Below, piece after piece: positions 3,929 to 37,760 of a DNA stretch of 64,000 nucleotides. Under the pieces are notes generated by a model, which was given only the letters and a program-made list of their open reading frames with translations, had not been told where the DNA came from and searched no databases. Where the stretch lies: the NCBI GenBank assembly GCA_022181065.1, contig BQMY01000077.1, forward strand, positions 62,001 to 126,000, written 5' to 3'. The position numbers were made by a program, and so were the translations under genes. This DNA is from Melioribacteraceae bacterium. GTDB taxonomy: Bacteria > Bacteroidota > Ignavibacteria > Ignavibacteriales > Melioribacteraceae. The number at the start of each line of letters is the position of its first letter. The stretch's first letter is position 1.

Positions 3929-4423
3929 ATGGATAAAATCAAAATATTTTCCGGTGCGCTACTTTTAATTCTAATTACCGCTTGTTCATTAACTGATGAA
4001 ACAACAAAAACAGAAATCGATAACCCGGTTCCTGAAAAATCCGAAGCACCTGAGCCGGAAAAATTCAGTTTCAACGAATTGGAGAGCTGGATAAATCTGA
4101 TGCCGGGCGGCAGTGACAGTTTTCATTTAAGCGGAGATCTGGTAATTACTGAAAACTCAGGTCTGAACTTGAAAAACGCGCAAATATTGGAAGTGGTTGT
4201 TTTCCAGGATGGAAAGCAGCTATATGAATTTAAACCCGAAACGAAAAAAGGGTATGTTAGTGAGGAGGAATCTGCATATTTTCAGTTTTCTACCAAACGA
4301 GGATTAAAGATCTCGGGATTACTAAAAACCGAGTTCCCGATAGTGGTAGAAGTACATCTTACCGATGGTGACGAAAATATGGTTGTAACAGTTGACAAAG
4401 TTTTAGTCCAGAAGATATATTAA
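3929..4423 (+). CDS. Hypothetical lipoprotein
   Basis: Small secreted lipoprotein of unknown function (164 residues from this start). A hydrophobic signal segment ends in the lipobox LITAC, placing the acylated Cys at about residue 19, followed by a Thr/Glu/Pro-rich linker and a compact domain with alternating beta-type segments. An in-frame TTG at 3923 overlaps the previous stop (TTGA) and could be used instead; ATG at 3929 was chosen because it gives a normal signal peptide. It lies between a prenyltransferase and a CNNM-type membrane protein with almost no spacing, suggesting the same transcript. No domain was recognised. Confidence 0.7.
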   Translation: MDKIKIFSGALLLILITACSLTDETTKTEIDNPVPEKSEAPEPEKFSFNELESWINLMPGGSDSFHLSGDLVITENSGLNLKNAQILEVVVFQDGKQLYEFKPETKKGYVSEEESAYFQFSTKRGLKISGLLKTEFPIVVEVHLTDGDENMVVTVDKVLVQKIY

Positions 4424-4424
4424 G

Positions 4425-5672
4425 ATGCTGACAGATTTTTTGATACTTGCCGGATTGATAGTTCTAAGCGGCTTTTTCTCCTCATCCGAGCTTGCTTACG
4501 TGGTTGCAAATAAAATTAAAATTGAGATCAGAGCACGAAAAAACAAATTTGCCGCCAAATCGGCGCAATTTTTTGTAAACAATCCGGAAAAGTTCTTTTC
4601 TACGATACTCATCTCCAACAATATTGTGAATATTACATTTGCGTCTTTAATCACAGTATTTCTGACAAATCTGTTTCAATGGAGCGATATTGAGATTTTA
4701 TTATTTTCATCATTTGTCTTGTTGATATTCGGAGAGCTGATACCAAAATATTTTGCGCGAGAAATTGCAGATCGTTTCATCATGTTTTCTATTTTGCCAA
4801 TAAGATTTGTCTCTATTATCATCTTCCCAATCGTGCAGATCACTTCCTTTTTATCAGAAGTGCTTACAAATACCAGTAAACTTAATGAATCGAATATTTC
4901 ACAATTATTCGATAAGGAAGATATTCAGACGCTACTTAATGAAAGTTCGGAAGCCGGTATGGTTGGTGAAGAGGAGAGTGATATCATCAACAAAATGATC
5001 GAGCTTAAAGAAAAACGATTATATGAAATTCTCACACCAAGAACAGATATTGTTGCCCTCGAAATTAATAGTTCCATTAAGGAGGCGGTAGAACAATTTG
5101 TAGAATCCGGGTATAGCAAACTGCCTGTATTCGAGGAGAATATTGATAATATCAAAGGACTTGTTTACGCGTACGATATGTTTAAAATTCCGGCTGATAT
5201 AAAGAGTATTATGAGGGAAGCTGTTTTCGTGCCCGATTCAAAAAAAGGTCTGGATCTGCTCAATGAGCTACTGGAAAAGCAAATATCTATTGCAATAGTT
5301 ATAGATGAGTTTGGCGGCACAGCAGGCGTTGTTACTGTTGAGGACATTCTGGAGGAAATGCTCGGTGATATCAAGGATGAGTATGACGTTGAAGAGGAGA
5401 TCGCGAAAAAAATTGACGATACTACTTATATTATCAGCGGTAAAGTTGATATAGATTACCTCAACGATGAATTTGATCTTGACCTTCCTGAAGGTGATTA
5501 CGAAACACTCGCGGGGTATGTCACCTCAAAAACAGGGAAAATTCCTCTTAAAGGTGAGCTTTTCCAAATAGATCACTTCAAGGCACTTATCATACGATCT
5601 GATAAAACGAAAATTGATCTGATTAAATTGTTTGTCGATCCCGACGGGATTGATGACCTACCAAACGTATAA
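4425..5672 (+). CDS. CNNM/CorC-type membrane protein (DUF21-CBS-CBS-CorC_HlyC)
   Basis: 415-residue inner-membrane protein of the hemolysin/CorC/CNNM family, associated with Mg2+/Co2+ homeostasis. Residues 1-180 form the DUF21 region with several hydrophobic helices and the opening SGFFSSSELAY; about 195-315 are a CBS pair (MTPRTDI-like ILTPRTDIVALE, then VIDEFGGTAGVVTVEDILEE); about 330-410 form the C-terminal CorC_HlyC domain with GDYETLAGYV. It starts one base after the lipoprotein stop, and its own stop overlaps the next start by one base. Family assignment is strong; transported ion or regulatory role is inferred. Confidence 0.92.
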   Translation: MLTDFLILAGLIVLSGFFSSSELAYVVANKIKIEIRARKNKFAAKSAQFFVNNPEKFFSTILISNNIVNITFASLITVFLTNLFQWSDIEILLFSSFVLLIFGELIPKYFAREIADRFIMFSILPIRFVSIIIFPIVQITSFLSEVLTNTSKLNESNISQLFDKEDIQTLLNESSEAGMVGEEESDIINKMIELKEKRLYEILTPRTDIVALEINSSIKEAVEQFVESGYSKLPVFEENIDNIKGLVYAYDMFKIPADIKSIMREAVFVPDSKKGLDLLNELLEKQISIAIVIDEFGGTAGVVTVEDILEEMLGDIKDEYDVEEEIAKKIDDTTYIISGKVDIDYLNDEFDLDLPEGDYETLAGYVTSKTGKIPLKGELFQIDHFKALIIRSDKTKIDLIKLFVDPDGIDDLPNV

Positions 5673-31473: not shown

Positions 31474-33430
31474 ATTTGATCAATTCTATTGATCTGATAA
31501 TATCATTTCTCTGAATTTTATCCACAGTTTCCATACCCCCGGTTACTTCTCCGAATATGGTATATCTTCCGTTGAGATGGGGAAACTCGGAATGTGTTAC
31601 AAACCATTGAGACCCTTCCGTATCAGGACCCGCGCTCGCCATACCAACTTTACCACGTGTATATTTCAGGTAAGAAAATTCCGAGGATATGGAATAGCCG
31701 GGGCCACCCCATCCTGTACCGGTAGGGTCACCAGTCTGAATAACAAAATTCGGTACAACTCTGTGGAATTTAACGTTATTATAATATCCCCGTTCCGCTA
31801 GCATAACAAAGTTTCCGACGGATACGGGTGCGACATCGGGTGCTAATTTAATAATAAAACTTCCCCGGTTAGTGTTAATTTTAGCAGATTTGTATTTGAA
31901 CGAATTAGCCCACATCTCTTCAAAATAATCGGTGGAATATAATGTCCTTTCTGACTCTTTATCAAGTTCTTTCAGTGCGAACATTTTAACTGCGGGAATT
32001 GAAACACCGGTTAGTCTGTTTAATGTTTCCAATCTGGATGTGGAATCTATTTTTCCGGACAAATCAGCAAAAACGAGGAACGTTTCGGTGAAATTATCAT
32101 TGTCGTAATTACGGATTATCGAATTGTTTATTACCTCAGTTATTCTGTTTTTATACTTTTTCGCAAATGAGGTATCAATATTTACAGCAACAATTGCCGC
32201 CGTAGCCCCATTTTCGCTTCCCAAAAATTCAAAGACAAGATTGAGATAATCTCCTCTGTCAGACAGTTTTTCCTGAAGTGACATTAACGCGTCAAGACAA
32301 TATGGAGTATTGTGTTCCTGTAAATTGACGAGTGAATCTAACAGGATATTAAAACTTTTTTCAGAGTCTTTTACGTTCTGAATAAGCCTAAAAACAGACT
32401 TTTGTGAAATTTCCTTCTGGTATGATTTCAATAATACAGAGGCTTTCTCAGATTTTGTTTCAGCGAGCAGGTTTACTATTTCACCCTTAACATCAGGGGA
32501 AAAACCGGTTTTTTTAATTTCATCACCCAGAAACGAGGAGAGAGTTGTTTTTTCTATTTTCGAATCAGTTTGAAGTGCTTGAAGCAATCGTAATGATACA
32601 TGTTCACTTCTGTCATAAAGTAGCTTTTTGGCGTATGAGAAGAACGTGTTCTCAGGTATTTTAATTTGAGGAAGCAGTGCGGCTGCCTCACAACGTACAC
32701 GCCAATCTTTGTGTGTGATAATTAAATCTATCAATTGTTTATTAAATGTATCAAAGTTTGCTTTTCTCAAAGAACCAATTGCGTATTGAAGCAGGACAGG
32801 TGAGTTTTGATGAGATTGTATTATCTCTACAATTTTTTTGTTGTAGTCAGCATTTGCGCCCATACGGTAGTTTGCGTAAAGTGCTTCCCGGATACGCAAC
32901 ACATTGCTAGAGTTCAATTCATTTGAGAGTATGAAGTTAGCGAGTGAATCTGAAGTTATCACACCCCTCATAAATAAATTTGTGAGGAAAATAGGAATTC
33001 CAGCTTTAGTCTGTTTCGATAATTTACCGTATGCATTACCGATTAGATCGTATTCTTTGGTGGTGCCAATTTTACCGAGGGCATCGAATGCAACAGGGAG
33101 GATATCGGGTTTCGTATTGGAGAGAATGTTATTTACCAGAAAACTTCGGGAAAGATCTGTATCGAGATAACCCAAAGTAAATACAAGTTCCTTACCATAT
33201 TTTTTAATTTCAAGCTCGGTAATAAACTTTGTAAAATCGGTATTCCCGGTATTCGCGAGTGAGAGGAGTAATGCTTTTATTTTTCTTTCATCGAAAGAAT
33301 AGTAGTAGCCTGCAACTGTATTCTCATCAAGCTCGCGAAGAAATGTTTGTCTTACAAGTTGTTCATCTTCAGGAGAATATTGCGCAAAACATGTCATTGC
33401 GAAGATAAGCAAGAAAAAAAGTTGCTTCAT
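31472..33430 (-). CDS. HEAT-repeat protein fused to a cyclophilin-type peptidyl-prolyl isomerase
   Basis: 652 residues, exported (signal MKQLFFLLIFAMTCFAQ). Residues about 25-490 are helical HEAT/Armadillo-like repeats (for example WRVRCEAAALLPQI). Residues about 505-652 are a cyclophilin: GSFIIKLAPDVAPVSVGNF, KFHRVVPNFVIQTGDP, GTGWGGPGY, MASAGPDTEGSQWFVTHS and LNGRYTIFGEV, with the active-site Arg (FHRV) and Gln kept. Likely a periplasmic folding factor with a client-binding scaffold. It follows the GNAT gene by 55 bp. Confidence 0.9.
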   Translation of the reverse strand: MKQLFFLLIFAMTCFAQYSPEDEQLVRQTFLRELDENTVAGYYYSFDERKIKALLLSLANTGNTDFTKFITELEIKKYGKELVFTLGYLDTDLSRSFLVNNILSNTKPDILPVAFDALGKIGTTKEYDLIGNAYGKLSKQTKAGIPIFLTNLFMRGVITSDSLANFILSNELNSSNVLRIREALYANYRMGANADYNKKIVEIIQSHQNSPVLLQYAIGSLRKANFDTFNKQLIDLIITHKDWRVRCEAAALLPQIKIPENTFFSYAKKLLYDRSEHVSLRLLQALQTDSKIEKTTLSSFLGDEIKKTGFSPDVKGEIVNLLAETKSEKASVLLKSYQKEISQKSVFRLIQNVKDSEKSFNILLDSLVNLQEHNTPYCLDALMSLQEKLSDRGDYLNLVFEFLGSENGATAAIVAVNIDTSFAKKYKNRITEVINNSIIRNYDNDNFTETFLVFADLSGKIDSTSRLETLNRLTGVSIPAVKMFALKELDKESERTLYSTDYFEEMWANSFKYKSAKINTNRGSFIIKLAPDVAPVSVGNFVMLAERGYYNNVKFHRVVPNFVIQTGDPTGTGWGGPGYSISSEFSYLKYTRGKVGMASAGPDTEGSQWFVTHSEFPHLNGRYTIFGEVTGGMETVDKIQRNDIIRSIELIK

Positions 33431-33485
33431 GGAGCCTCCCGTATATTAGTAAGGAACAACAATAAATATAAGAATATTATGGTGA

Positions 33486-34607
33486 TTATACAGCTATTTC
33501 GAAAATCCTGTACTTTTTGTAAAGAGTGCCGTTCATCATTTCAGCGCCTCTTACCATCATAGTATTATCCTCAAGTACCCAGCTGGCTTCACCTTTATAG
33601 ATATTTCTTTTTGCGGCTCTTTTGAGAATATCATGATAAAGCACAGCGTCGAGTCCTTTTTTCTGATATTCGGGGAGAACACCAAGTACGATAATACGTG
33701 CCCATGGAATTTCTTTATTTTTAGTGAACAATTTGAGGAAGTTAAACGGGAATAGCTTTCCGTTCATTTCCTTGAAAATGTAGTTATAGTCGGGAACCAC
33801 CAGAGCAAAACCGATGGTTTTATTATCTATTTCGGCAAAGACAACGAGTGTTGGGTCAATGATTTGCTTAAATTCGGCAGCCATTTTATCAATTTCTTCA
33901 TTGGTCATCGGAACAAAACCCCAATTCGGCTCCCAGGCTTTGTTGTAAATATCTTTAAAGAGATTCAATTCATTCGCAAAATCTTTAAGATTAAGTTCAC
34001 GAAGTTTCATTTTGTATCTTTCCTGAACCATCTTGCCAACTCGAACAATTTTGTCATTACTGCTCATCTTTTCGTTCTCAATCTTGAACGCGAATAAGTC
34101 CTTTGCTTTTTGAAGTCCGTAATTTTCAAGAAGTGTTTTATAATATGGCGGATTATATGGCATCATAATTCGAGGTGGATCGTCAAAACCTTCAATGAGA
34201 AGAGCTGTTTCGTCATTCATGGATGGATTAACAGGACCACGCATCGTATCGAGCCCTTTTTCCTTGATCCATTCTTTCGCTGTGTCTAAAAGTGTATTGG
34301 CAACATCCTGATCTTCAATCGATTCAAAAAAGCCGAAAAATCCAACTTTATCATTGTGCACTTCATTATGGAGATCATTTTTAATAGCCGCAATTCGTCC
34401 CACGAGTTCGCCATCTTTATATGCAAGGTAAGTATCCATCTCTGCATGGAGAAAGAAAGGATTTTTCTTTTTATCAAGCAGTCCTTTTCGTTCCATAATA
34501 AGTGGCGGTACCCAATTGGGATAGTTTTCGTAGATCTTCCACTGAAACTTAATGAAGGTCATTAGGTCTTTTTTAGATTCGACTTTTTTTACTGTAATAT
34601 TGCTCAT
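33486..34607 (-). CDS. GNAT-fold acyltransferase, candidate bacterial ceramide synthase
   Basis: 373 residues from ATG at 34607 (CCGGAG ribosome site). N-terminal wording: FIKFQWKIYENYPNWVPPL, then KKKNPFFLHAEMDTYLAY, VGRIAAI, GFFGFFE, GPVNPSMNDETALLIEGFDDPP; C-terminal GNAT core: IIVLGVLPEYQKKGLDAVL with the Q-x-x-G acyl-CoA motif, and EASWVLEDN. Proteins of this shape sit beside serine palmitoyltransferase in other Bacteroidota, and the Caulobacter ceramide synthase bCerS is a GNAT-family enzyme. N-acylation of a sphingoid base is inferred from family and position, not shown. Confidence 0.75.
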   Translation of the reverse strand: MSNITVKKVESKKDLMTFIKFQWKIYENYPNWVPPLIMERKGLLDKKKNPFFLHAEMDTYLAYKDGELVGRIAAIKNDLHNEVHNDKVGFFGFFESIEDQDVANTLLDTAKEWIKEKGLDTMRGPVNPSMNDETALLIEGFDDPPRIMMPYNPPYYKTLLENYGLQKAKDLFAFKIENEKMSSNDKIVRVGKMVQERYKMKLRELNLKDFANELNLFKDIYNKAWEPNWGFVPMTNEEIDKMAAEFKQIIDPTLVVFAEIDNKTIGFALVVPDYNYIFKEMNGKLFPFNFLKLFTKNKEIPWARIIVLGVLPEYQKKGLDAVLYHDILKRAAKRNIYKGEASWVLEDNTMMVRGAEMMNGTLYKKYRIFEIAV

Positions 34608-34625
34608 ATCAACTCCGGAATGGAA

Positions 34626-34647
34626 AATGCCCGGAATACCGGGCATT
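34626..34647 (-). terminator. Hairpin between the palmitoyltransferase and GNAT genes
   Basis: Nine-bp perfect stem AATGCCCGG / CCGGGCATT around four bases, with only four T after it on the minus strand, just downstream of the SPT stop. It may be a weak terminator or attenuator that sets the ratio of the two genes. Confidence 0.55.
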
Positions 34648-34653
34648 AAAAAA

Positions 34654-35844
34654 TTAAACTAAGCCTAACTCTGCACCAACTTTTTTGAAAGTATCGATGA
34701 TGTAATCCAAATGCTGATCCTCATGAGTAGCCATATAGCTGGTTCTCATCATCTGGCGGCCGGGAGGGACACCCGGAGAAATAAATACATTAACGAAAAT
34801 ACCTTCGTCATAAAGTCTTCTCCACATCTTAAATGCGATAGTGTCATCACCTACAATAACCGGAACGATACCGGTTCTACCCTGGATTACATTAAATCCT
34901 GCGGCTGTAAAACCTTTTCTGATTTTATCAGCATTTTCGATAAGTTTAGTAACTCTCCATGGTTCTTCTTCGAGCAGGTCCAATGCTGCAAGCGCTGCCG
35001 CAACGGAGGAAGGAGTGGGAGACGCGCTGAAAATAAGAGCTGCAGAATGGTGTTTTATATAGTCAATAACTTTTGCGTCACCTGTTACGAATCCACCGAG
35101 AGAAGCAAAAGTTTTGCTGAATGTTCCCATTGTCATGTCAACTTCGTCAACGAGATCAAATTCACTTGCGGTACCTCTACCGCCTTTTCCGATAACACCA
35201 ACGGAATGCGCATCATCTATAAGAGTGCGAGCATTATATTTTTTAGCGAGTTCCATAAGTTTTGGTAGATCAACTATTTCGCCACCGGTTGAGAAAACGC
35301 CATCACTTACGATAAGTTTCGCTGCATCAATCGGCGCTTTCTGAAGAACTCTTTCAAGATCATTCATGTCATTATGTTTGTAGCGTAAAAGCTCTGCTGT
35401 CGCGCCGCGTGCCATTAAGTTACCCGCGACGATACACGCGTGATTATCTTTGTCAGAAATTACATATTCACCACGTTGAACAAGAGTAGGAATTATTCCC
35501 TGGGCTGACTGGTAGCCTGTACTGAATAAAAGAACAGCTTCTTTACCGAAAAATTTAGCCAATCTTTCTTCGAGTTCGATATGAAGATCGAGTGTTCCGG
35601 TAAGATAACGGGAACCCGAACATCCTGTACCATATTTTTCAATCGCCTTAATAGCCGCTTCTTTAACTCTCGGGTGAGCTGTTAAACCGAGATAATTATT
35701 AGAGCCGGCCATGATCTTTTTCTCACCTTCTATAAATACAACGGGACCTTCATTTTCCTCGATAGCTCTGAAGTACGGATACATACCTATTGCTTTTATC
35801 TCATCAGCTCGAGTAAAATCATAACACTTCTTAAATAAATCCAA
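34654..35844 (-). CDS. spt: Serine palmitoyltransferase-like alpha-oxoamine synthase
   Basis: 396 residues from TTG at 35844: AGGAGG lies six bases upstream, and the extra N-terminal frame back to 35946 has no family match. PLP enzyme of the AOS family: [50 protein letters not shown] with the PLP-stacking His, [35 protein letters not shown] with the Schiff-base Lys (about residue 240), and [10 protein letters not shown]. The wording follows bacterial SPT, which makes 3-ketosphinganine from serine and palmitoyl-CoA; 2-amino-3-ketobutyrate CoA ligase is the main alternative. Its neighbours support SPT. Confidence 0.85.
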
Positions 35845-35966
35845 ATCCTTCCTCCTGACATGGTTAGATATTATAGTACAATAATTGTTATATTGGACAT
35901 TTGAATTCCAGATGCTAAAATTAAATTTAAAATGGTTCAAAATCAATTTGTCGGGTAATAAATAGT

Positions 35967-36968
35967 ATGGAAGTAAATAAGACTGGTACGATTTCTGTTG
36001 TTACAGGTGGTTCAGGGTTTGTCGGGAGCCATCTTGTTGACCTATTAATTAGTAAAGGACACGAAGTTAGATGCATTGTTCGAAAAACAAGTAGCCTGAA
36101 GTGGCTTGAAGGTAAAAATGTAAAAATATTTGATTGCGGGATAAGCGATGTTGAGGCGCTTGAGGATGTACTTGCAGGTGCCGATTATCTTTTTCATGTG
36201 GCAGGTGTAGTTAAAGCCAAAAATGAAGAAGGTTATAAAAAAGGGAATGTTGAGACGACCAGGAACTTGTTAGACGCGTTGTTGAAGTTCAAGGTTGATA
36301 TCAAAAAGGTTGTAATTGTAAGCTCATTAACCGCTGCCGGTCCTGCAGTTCCGGGAAAACCACTCACTGAAGATATGCCTGTAAATCCTATTACACGATA
36401 TGGGAAAAGCAAAGCGGAACAGGAGGCTCTGGTTAAAACTTATCTTGATAAATTACCAATCAGTATTGTGAGACCGCCGGCTGTCTATGGTGAACGTGAT
36501 ACAGAGATATATTTGATGTTCAAAACGTTTAAGCAAGGGCTAATGACCTTCATTGGGTTTGATAAAAAAGAACTTAGTCTGGTTCATGTAGCAGACCTTG
36601 TTAACGGAATATATCTGGCGGGGATTTCAGAAAATTCGAAGTCGCAGACATATTTTATCAGTTCGGAAGAAATTTACAACTGGTATCAGGTGGCTGATGA
36701 AATGCAGAATTCGATTGGTAAAAAGGCAATAAGATTGAACTTGCCTCATTTTCTTGTTTATTCAGTTGCCGTATTTGCTGAATTTTTTGCGATGTTTCAG
36801 AAATCAGCGGCTACATTTAATATTGAAAAAGCACGTGATTTTGTGCAATCGGCATGGACATGCGATGTAAGCAAGGCGAAAAAAGAACTTGGTTACGAAC
36901 AGAAAGTTTCCCTGGCGGATGGTATTAAGCGCACGGTTGACTGGTACAAGGATAATAACTGGTTGTGA
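35967..36968 (+). CDS. NAD-dependent epimerase/dehydratase, candidate ceramide reductase
   Basis: 333-residue extended SDR. The N-terminal dinucleotide motif is [11 protein letters not shown]; the catalytic YGKSK (YxxxK) follows SSLTAAGPA; later [11 protein letters not shown] and a C-terminal hydrophobic stretch ([19 protein letters not shown]) that could dip into the membrane. It diverges from the serine palmitoyltransferase gene across about 120 bp. In Caulobacter an epimerase-like SDR, CerR, reduces the keto group after acylation; the same role is inferred here. Its 3' end overlaps the DUF123 gene on the other strand by 76 bases. Confidence 0.8.
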
Positions 36969-37363
36969 TCAATTTCTTCCTTTGTAAATAAAAGGTGTGA
37001 GCGGCAAACATTACAATCTGAGTTACCAAAATTATCGAGTGGAAAATCCAAATTGAATTTTTGAGATAGAGTCGCTACAATTTCACACTCAAAATCAGCG
37101 TTTGCATTGGGGAAAATGAATGCGTCAAGAAATGTAAACGCCGGATTTGAGGTTATATGATCGATGTGCCAGTGAATTTTTTTATCAGTACGCAGATGTC
37201 GGCAAATCCTCTGTGTTAAACCCTTCTGAGCACTTCCGGAGTAGTAGTAATAACCTGGCGCAAGTAATTCTGAAGCAAATCTCTTTATTGAGCTCAGGCT
37301 ACCAGGCTGCGCAAGATAATAGCGTAAAAGGTAAGTTCCGTGATTATCAGTTAGCTTTCGCAC
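36893..37363 (-). CDS. GIY-YIG nuclease-like DUF123 protein
   Basis: About 156 residues from GTG at 37363; an in-frame TTG at 37390 is possible, so the start is uncertain. Seen: NHGTYLLRYYL, PGYYYYSGSAQKGLTQRICRHLR, KKIHWHIDHI and GNSDCNVCRSHLLF, the DUF123 layout of GIY-YIG superfamily proteins that in archaea are linked to endonuclease III. Nuclease activity in this small form is unproven. Its start overlaps the end of the haem lipoprotein gene upstream, and its end overlaps the epimerase gene on the opposite strand by 76 bases. Confidence 0.75.
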   Translation of the reverse strand: MRKLTDNHGTYLLRYYLAQPGSLSSIKRFASELLAPGYYYYSGSAQKGLTQRICRHLRTDKKIHWHIDHITSNPAFTFLDAFIFPNANADFECEIVATLSQKFNLDFPLDNFGNSDCNVCRSHLLFTKEEIDHNQLLSLYQSTVRLIPSARETFCS

Positions 37364-37760
37364 CTTCAGCAACCCACGCTTCAATTCCAATGATCTGATC
37401 TTCTGTCAACGGCTGATAACCGAGCGGGGGCATGTTTTTAGCGCCATTGTTTCCTCTGATCGCCCAGATAAGAATACTGTTATCGGGATCACCGGGAAAT
37501 ACGATCGAAACGTTCGAAGTAGTCCCAGCCCAGGAAGTTAACATTAAGCCCCCGGCGGCGTCTTCTGTATTATGACAACCGGAGTAATTACAGTAAATGT
37601 TAAAAACGGGTTGAATATGCTGATTGTAACTAACATTTACTGATGGAATAAACAGGTCAGCTTCATTGATTGTGTCCTTGCATCCGCCTAGTAAAATAGC
37701 TATAAAGATTGATGTGAGTACGAAGTTAACAAGATATGTTTTAATGTTTTTTATTTTCAT
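37347..37760 (-). CDS. Small cytochrome-c-like lipoprotein with a CX4CH motif
   Basis: 137 residues. Lipobox LLGGC (Cys27), then a domain with HIQPVFNIYCNYSGCHNTEDAAGG-type wording. The haem motif is C-N-Y-S-G-C-H, that is CX4CH rather than CXXCH, as in Planctomycete-type cytochrome domains; a Met in KNMPPLGYQPLTEDQI may be the sixth ligand. Probably an envelope-anchored electron carrier, if haem is attached. It overlaps the DUF123 gene. Confidence 0.72.
   Translation of the reverse strand: MKIKNIKTYLVNFVLTSIFIAILLGGCKDTINEADLFIPSVNVSYNQHIQPVFNIYCNYSGCHNTEDAAGGLMLTSWAGTTSNVSIVFPGDPDNSILIWAIRGNNGAKNMPPLGYQPLTEDQIIGIEAWVAEGAKAN

Follow-up and report, generated by a model that had tools for sequence, protein, structure and literature searches.

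A conserved three-gene locus in a Melioribacteraceae bacterium is a candidate ceramide-backbone module

We analysed a window of 64,000 nucleotides from a Melioribacteraceae bacterium (Ignavibacteria, Ignavibacteriales; GenBank assembly GCA_022181065.1, contig BQMY01000077.1, positions 62,001 to 126,000, forward strand). An original prediction had placed there, at 33486-36968, open reading frames (ORFs) for a serine palmitoyltransferase (SPT)-like enzyme, a GNAT acyltransferase and an extended short-chain dehydrogenase/reductase (SDR), which together would cover the three activities of the bacterial ceramide route. The three ORFs are present, and this interpretation is largely supported by homology and linkage: the locus is very probably a ceramide-backbone module, predicted to supply the envelope with dihydroceramide. 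The genes belong to these three families, and their linkage is conserved in relatives. Characterised homologues are the basis for what we propose on the activities of the three proteins, on their acyl donors, on whether N-acylation or reduction comes first, and on the lipid finally made. In this scheme, the pyridoxal phosphate (PLP) enzyme would form 3-keto-sphinganine by condensing a long-chain acyl thioester with an amino acid, most probably L-serine, the tandem-GNAT protein would move a second fatty acyl chain onto the amino group, and the NAD(P)-dependent extended SDR would reduce the 3-keto group, before or after N-acylation, with dihydroceramide as the end product. We predict that the host makes sphingolipids.

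The PLP enzyme and its possible substrates

The PLP enzyme groups with SPTs. In a tree of 42 rows, SulA not being among them, it lies inside a 26-row SPT clade (support 99/98) that includes 3a2b from Sphingobacterium together with Bacteroides, Sphingomonas, Roseomonas and E. coli SPT rows. E. coli 2-amino-3-ketobutyrate CoA ligase (KBL), 7v58, the Thermus 8-amino-7-oxononanoate synthase (AONS)/KBL and E. coli BioF, the last on a long branch, fall outside. Within the SPT clade, the window SPT belongs to a sub-clade (100/99) with Kapaibacterium, Saprospiraceae, Chitinophagales and Chlorobiaceae rows; it is thus separate from the Sphingobacterium and Bacteroides SPTs, with which it shares the clade, the catalytic residues and the FSAS motif. 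The top NCBIfam model is NF047600 (SerpalmtaseCFB), with 490 bits against 371 for the runner-up, and the best PDB matches are 3a2b and 8guh, both annotated as SPT (379 bits); the organism of 3a2b, Sphingobacterium multivorum, is taken from a passage of PMC9304779. Weaker PDB matches are AONS/KBL (275 bits), KBL 1fc4 (235), the cysteate acyltransferase 28eh (222) and SulA 7u7h (196). By sequence, the SPT is of the Bacteroidota type and not of the Caulobacter type. Its closest named relatives, in the best 80 of 151 matches, come from Melioribacteraceae and other Ignavibacteriales metagenome-assembled genomes, with at most 87% identity. A phage origin is not indicated by the 19 phage records matching the SPT, all below 60% identity, of which the six that carry an annotation under the match are KBL or BioF. 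One relative (G010, contig G010:C4, L128) carries, away from the locus, another member of the SPT clade that has 50% identity to the window SPT.

The catalytic residues N49, H135, D211, H213, K244 and R367 are in place, most of them being common to the whole superfamily, and the seven active-site positions checked agree with the Sphingobacterium SPT. Position 274 is Ala, as in all 26 rows of the SPT clade; the 16 rows outside it carry 6 Asn, 4 Thr, 2 Ser and 4 Ala, with Asn in 6/6 KBL-clade rows and Thr in E. coli BioF and the Thermus AONS/KBL. The enzyme most probably takes serine, though it could use alanine or some other amino acid. Indeed, the same enzymes might make another product if the SPT preferred such an amino acid, namely 1-deoxyceramides or ceramide analogues, a variant that overlaps with the ceramide module and that we consider rather unlikely. 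Passages of PMC11334938 describe alanine as usable by bacterial Spt and propose that 1-deoxyceramides in the Black Sea come from abundant Desulfobacterota and/or Bacteroidota. The agreement with the Sphingobacterium SPT at the active site speaks against such a preference, although the sequence does not separate alanine from serine use.

Much less probable is the synthesis of sulfonolipids (capnine), in which the PLP enzyme would be a cysteate acyltransferase (SulA/CFAT) and the SDR and GNAT would complete N-acyl capnine. According to parts of PMC9304779 and PMC11211663, Bacteroidetes contain sulfonolipids, whose synthesis is held to be parallel to that of sphingolipids. However, the enzyme scores 222 bits to 28eh and 196 to 7u7h against 379 to the Sphingobacterium SPT, and its Ala274 stands where SulA-type enzymes carry Lys281, the residue that separates SulA from Spt, which has Ala, in a passage of PMC9304779.

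Threonine degradation, with the PLP enzyme as KBL and the SDR as an SDR-type threonine dehydrogenase, is very improbable. KBL belongs to the same alpha-oxoamine synthase superfamily as the window enzyme, and some threonine dehydrogenases are extended SDRs. The original prediction itself had named a grouping with KBLs, or a threonine dehydrogenase adjoining in relatives, as what would refute it; neither was found. The tree places the enzyme with SPTs and outside the KBL clade, which holds E. coli KBL, 7v58 and, from three relatives, four paralogues; the KBL model PRK06939 gives 370 bits, below its cut-off of 460, and position 274 is Ala, not Asn. In most relatives, the genes next to it encode the GNAT and the SDR. 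The SDR scores 44 bits to 3a1n and 39 to 5y1d, which we take to be threonine dehydrogenases, against 94 to 3wj7, and we know of no role for a GNAT in threonine degradation. A role in biotin synthesis, with the enzyme as BioF, has a negligible probability: it would suit the genome's only alpha-oxoamine synthase match (no other match to the SPT at E 0.001) and a score of 360 bits with the bioF model TIGR00858, but this is under the cut-off of 426, E. coli BioF stands apart in the tree, though on a long branch, bioB is over cut-off in 0/58 genomes of the set described below, and bioA reaches at best 229 of the 405 bits required in the own genome. The KBL, BioF and cysteate-transferase readings were therefore rejected, because of the SPT clade, Ala274, the sole alpha-oxoamine synthase match and the lack of bioB or bioA over cut-off.

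The putative acyltransferase and reductase

The GNAT protein fits the type found beside SPT, as the original prediction had it: it adjoins the SPT gene and is a full-length homologue of E. coli YghO (35% identity over 96% of the length). When 12 sequences, drawn from several phyla, are aligned, 17 columns are invariant. The predicted structure is a tandem GNAT fold (pLDDT 88), and in a fold comparison the model matched tandem-GNAT folds, among them N-myristoyltransferases at Z of about 16. A passage of PMC9386255 names yghO as the gene corresponding to CC_1154, and includes CC_1154 and CC_1164 among the genes needed for dihydroceramide formation in Caulobacter. E. coli YghO and epi served here, in place of Caulobacter sequences, as the published counterparts of CC_1154 and CC_1164, respectively; the queries were taken from E. 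coli PN43, the strain of that paper being BL21. In the GNAT tree, a Bacteroides-type subfamily is distinct (100/100) on a long branch, and a fork with support 87/80 joins the window group to it.

A second GNAT match (27-36% identity) is listed in 20/58 genomes, the own genome having the SPT-linked copy only. Of five such second GNATs that were fetched, four fall in the Bacteroides-type subfamily. This second GNAT is not tied to the ceramide locus, since one relative (G011) has it, as its only GNAT match, without any SPT. The four (L153, L154, L155 at 4254-5381 on the minus strand, and L156) share 45-51% identity with a GNAT of Bacteroides finegoldii and 31-33% with that of the window.

The third protein is an extended SDR (Pfam Epimerase), with T13, G14, G17 and G20 of the nucleotide-binding site and Y145 and K149 of the YxxxK motif invariant in 21 aligned sequences. 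In the SDR tree, it joins the SPT-linked SDRs of Melioribacter, Saprospiraceae, Chitinophagales and Aureispira (100/99). Six of seven other SDRs fetched from the own genome form a separate clade (97/92; 88/91 with a relative's SDR, L151), and the seventh, on a very long branch, lies among SPT-linked rows, as do two SDRs of relatives that are not adjacent to SPT (L150 and L152). A reciprocal best-hit search with the Caulobacter proteins had been suggested; here it was run in one direction, with E. coli proteins. When searched against the own genome, the E. coli epi homologue has the window SDR as its best match (72.7 against 37.6 bits, 24% identity), and so does the SPT-linked SDR of Rubrobacter (144.9 against 49.2 bits, 30% identity), again in one direction.

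Structures similar to the SDR in fold are for the most part nucleotide-sugar epimerases and dehydratases, tied at Z 33 to 35, and give no guide to the substrate. No ceramide enzyme is among the comparison rows shown for the SDR or the GNAT, which excludes nothing. The earlier description of the SDR as CerR-like holds for the type of reaction and does not fix the order of steps. Caulobacter CerR is reported as periplasmic and proposed to act after N-acylation (passage of PMC11087976), whereas BT_0972 of Bacteroides reduces 3-ketosphinganine (passage of PMC9278070); between these two orders, the sequence does not decide.

Conservation and comparison with known systems

The set of 58 genomes comprised 57 relatives and the own genome. 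All three orthologues are present in 53 (at least 68% identity for the SPT, 53% for the GNAT and 52% for the SDR), a few of these sets being interrupted by apparent frameshifts or by the end of a contig (G007, G008, G048, G053). The GNAT gene adjoins the SPT gene on the same strand in 52/58 genomes, the SDR gene is divergent from it in 52/58, and both hold in 50/58; other disrupted layouts reflect contig breaks or moves (G007, G009, G029, G051). Two sets are incomplete: in G009 (86% complete) the SDR is represented by a 33% match alone, and G018 (68% complete) lacks an SPT orthologue. None of the three orthologues was found in G004 (88% complete), G011 (91%) and G017 (99%), with an SDR limit of 1e-40; G017 has two fragments, of 33 and 40% identity, of another alpha-oxoamine synthase. 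Among the best 80 of 151 named SPT loci, 54 have both neighbours in the window layout, 6 have just the GNAT (in one of them, L120 from Endomicrobiaceae, an SDR lies upstream on the same strand), 5 have just the SDR, and 15 have no neighbour of either kind. The layout is more than chance, as it recurs in 50/58 genomes, own genome included, and in 54 of these best 80 loci. In a sample of the phylum, a GNAT match at 1e-60 occurs in 223/296 genomes, a count of GNAT matches alone in which linkage plays no part. In five loci from Kapaibacterium and other Ignavibacteriae (L098, L100-L103), an SPT 67-70% identical to that of the window has no GNAT or SDR match alongside.

Several observations weigh against a ceramide-backbone module. 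The 490 bits of the SPT are below the 640-bit cut-off of the equivalog NF047600, though this is its best-scoring model, and a Bacteroides SPT passes that cut-off with 700 bits. Ala274 is not specific to SPTs and alone is no proof of one, because 4/16 rows outside the SPT clade also have it. Deep forks are weak between the window GNAT and the YghO clades, the YghO group standing apart, and likewise between the window SDR and the proteobacterial Epi clade. The SPT homologues without either neighbour make up 15 of the best 80 named loci, several of them on short contigs. Moreover, our literature search found no lipid measurement of this Melioribacteraceae bacterium or its family.

The three classes are also linked in distant groups. 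They are adjacent in Aureispira, Rubrobacter and Streptomyces; in E. coli, Klebsiella, Sphingomonas and Roseomonas, they share a stretch of up to about 14 kb. A close likeness is the locus of Aureispira anguillae (AsAng_RS29425, RS29430 and RS29435; L035 3329-7158), on the 122 kb plasmid pAUEa of this Saprospiria bacterium, where the SDR is divergent from SPT and GNAT as in the window; identities are 63% for the SPT, 43% for the GNAT and 44% for the SDR. In Rubrobacter radiotolerans, an SPT-GNAT-SDR operon followed by an LTA-synthase-family gene was observed on a plasmid (L036 4704-8071).

The five-gene cluster of Caulobacter and E. coli (spt, acpR, aasR, epi/cerR, aca/bcerS) resembles the window in that SPT, GNAT and extended SDR are linked in the genome; it differs in that the window SPT is outside the proteobacterial clade and the layout is divergent. 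No gene for a specialised acyl carrier protein (ACP) or for an acyl-ACP synthetase or fatty acyl-AMP ligase adjoins the window SPT, and there is no room for acpR beside it, because it is flanked by the GNAT gene (46 bp) and the SDR gene (122 bp). A scan for the ACP motif in frames of 50-160 codons between 24000 and 47000 gave one match, not ACP-like by eye, the rest of the genome being outside the search. The E. coli spt-acp-epi-ligase plus yghO cluster (L039 3540-9137) is at least 80% covered in 4022/5426 complete genomes. The Bacteroides pathway (SPT BT_0870, 3-ketosphinganine reductase BT_0972) has a related SPT, that of B. finegoldii being 44% identical to the window SPT, but the B. finegoldii GNAT (L043) is of another subfamily than the window GNAT and lies away from the SPT. 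BT_0972 is an SDR found through its similarity to yeast Tsc10p and is unclustered with the SPT (passage of PMC9278070).

The bacterial ceramide pathway is already known, and Ignavibacteria have already been cited as potential sphingolipid producers: a passage of PMC10667739 cites genetic potential in 'Ignavibacter', and 1G-ceramides correlate there with Ignavibacteriales, among other taxa, in subsurface lipidomes. What is added here is a three-gene locus conserved across the order. Our literature search of open-licence papers, judged mostly from listings, found no report of this layout. GTDB counts Ignavibacteria in Bacteroidota. If they are so counted, the layout qualifies the statement, in a passage of PMC11334938, that Bacteroidota which produce sphingolipids do not have the three genes near one another. 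Most of a mostly uncultured order is predicted to make sphingolipids with a compact three-gene set; Ignavibacteria would therefore be candidate ceramide sources in subsurface lipidomes. More speculatively, and at long odds, Ignavibacteria might, unlike the Bacteroidota with genes reported apart (same passage of PMC11334938), keep a compact module that lacks an ACP and an ACP synthetase of its own, has been transferred between groups and perhaps makes a non-serine ceramide or relies on cytoplasmic reduction before N-acylation. Transfer is suggested because related modules are on plasmids in distant groups (Aureispira, Rubrobacter).

Layout of the locus

The coordinates of the features are given in Table 1. 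The SPT and GNAT genes are in tandem, the likely GNAT start being 46 bp past the SPT stop, and the SDR gene is divergent. The shared gap between the divergent genes, earlier put at about 120 bp, was measured between the divergent starts and comes very close to that value.

Table 1. Features of the candidate ceramide-backbone locus (positions in the window)
Feature	Coordinates	Strand	Remarks
SPT	34654..35844	-	396 aa, likely TTG start; ORF runs on to 35946
Shine-Dalgarno AGGAGG	35851..35856	-	6 nt upstream of the SPT TTG at 35844; read from sequence
Tandem-GNAT protein, putative N-acyltransferase, bCerS/Aca/YghO-like	33486..34607	-	373 aa, likely ATG at 34607; ORF runs on to 34646
Extended SDR, putative 3-keto-sphinganine or 3-keto-ceramide reductase, Epi/CerR-like	35967..36968	+	333 aa
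Divergent intergenic region	35845..35966	.	122 bp; presumed site of both promoters

At its 5' end, the SPT ORF 34654-35946 runs beyond the likely start of the gene. In the numbering of this long ORF, the TTG is residue 35, and the match starts within residues 30-36 for 29/53 orthologues of relatives; the others start earlier, many of them across stop codons. Pfam domains above cut-off are Aminotran_1_2 in the SPT, Acetyltransf_1 in the GNAT and Epimerase in the SDR. Promoter-like sites are not in excess in 33300-37300 (7 against 10.5 expected from shuffles). On the strand opposite to the SDR gene, a DUF123 ORF (36893-37390, minus strand) overlaps its 3' end by 76 bp.

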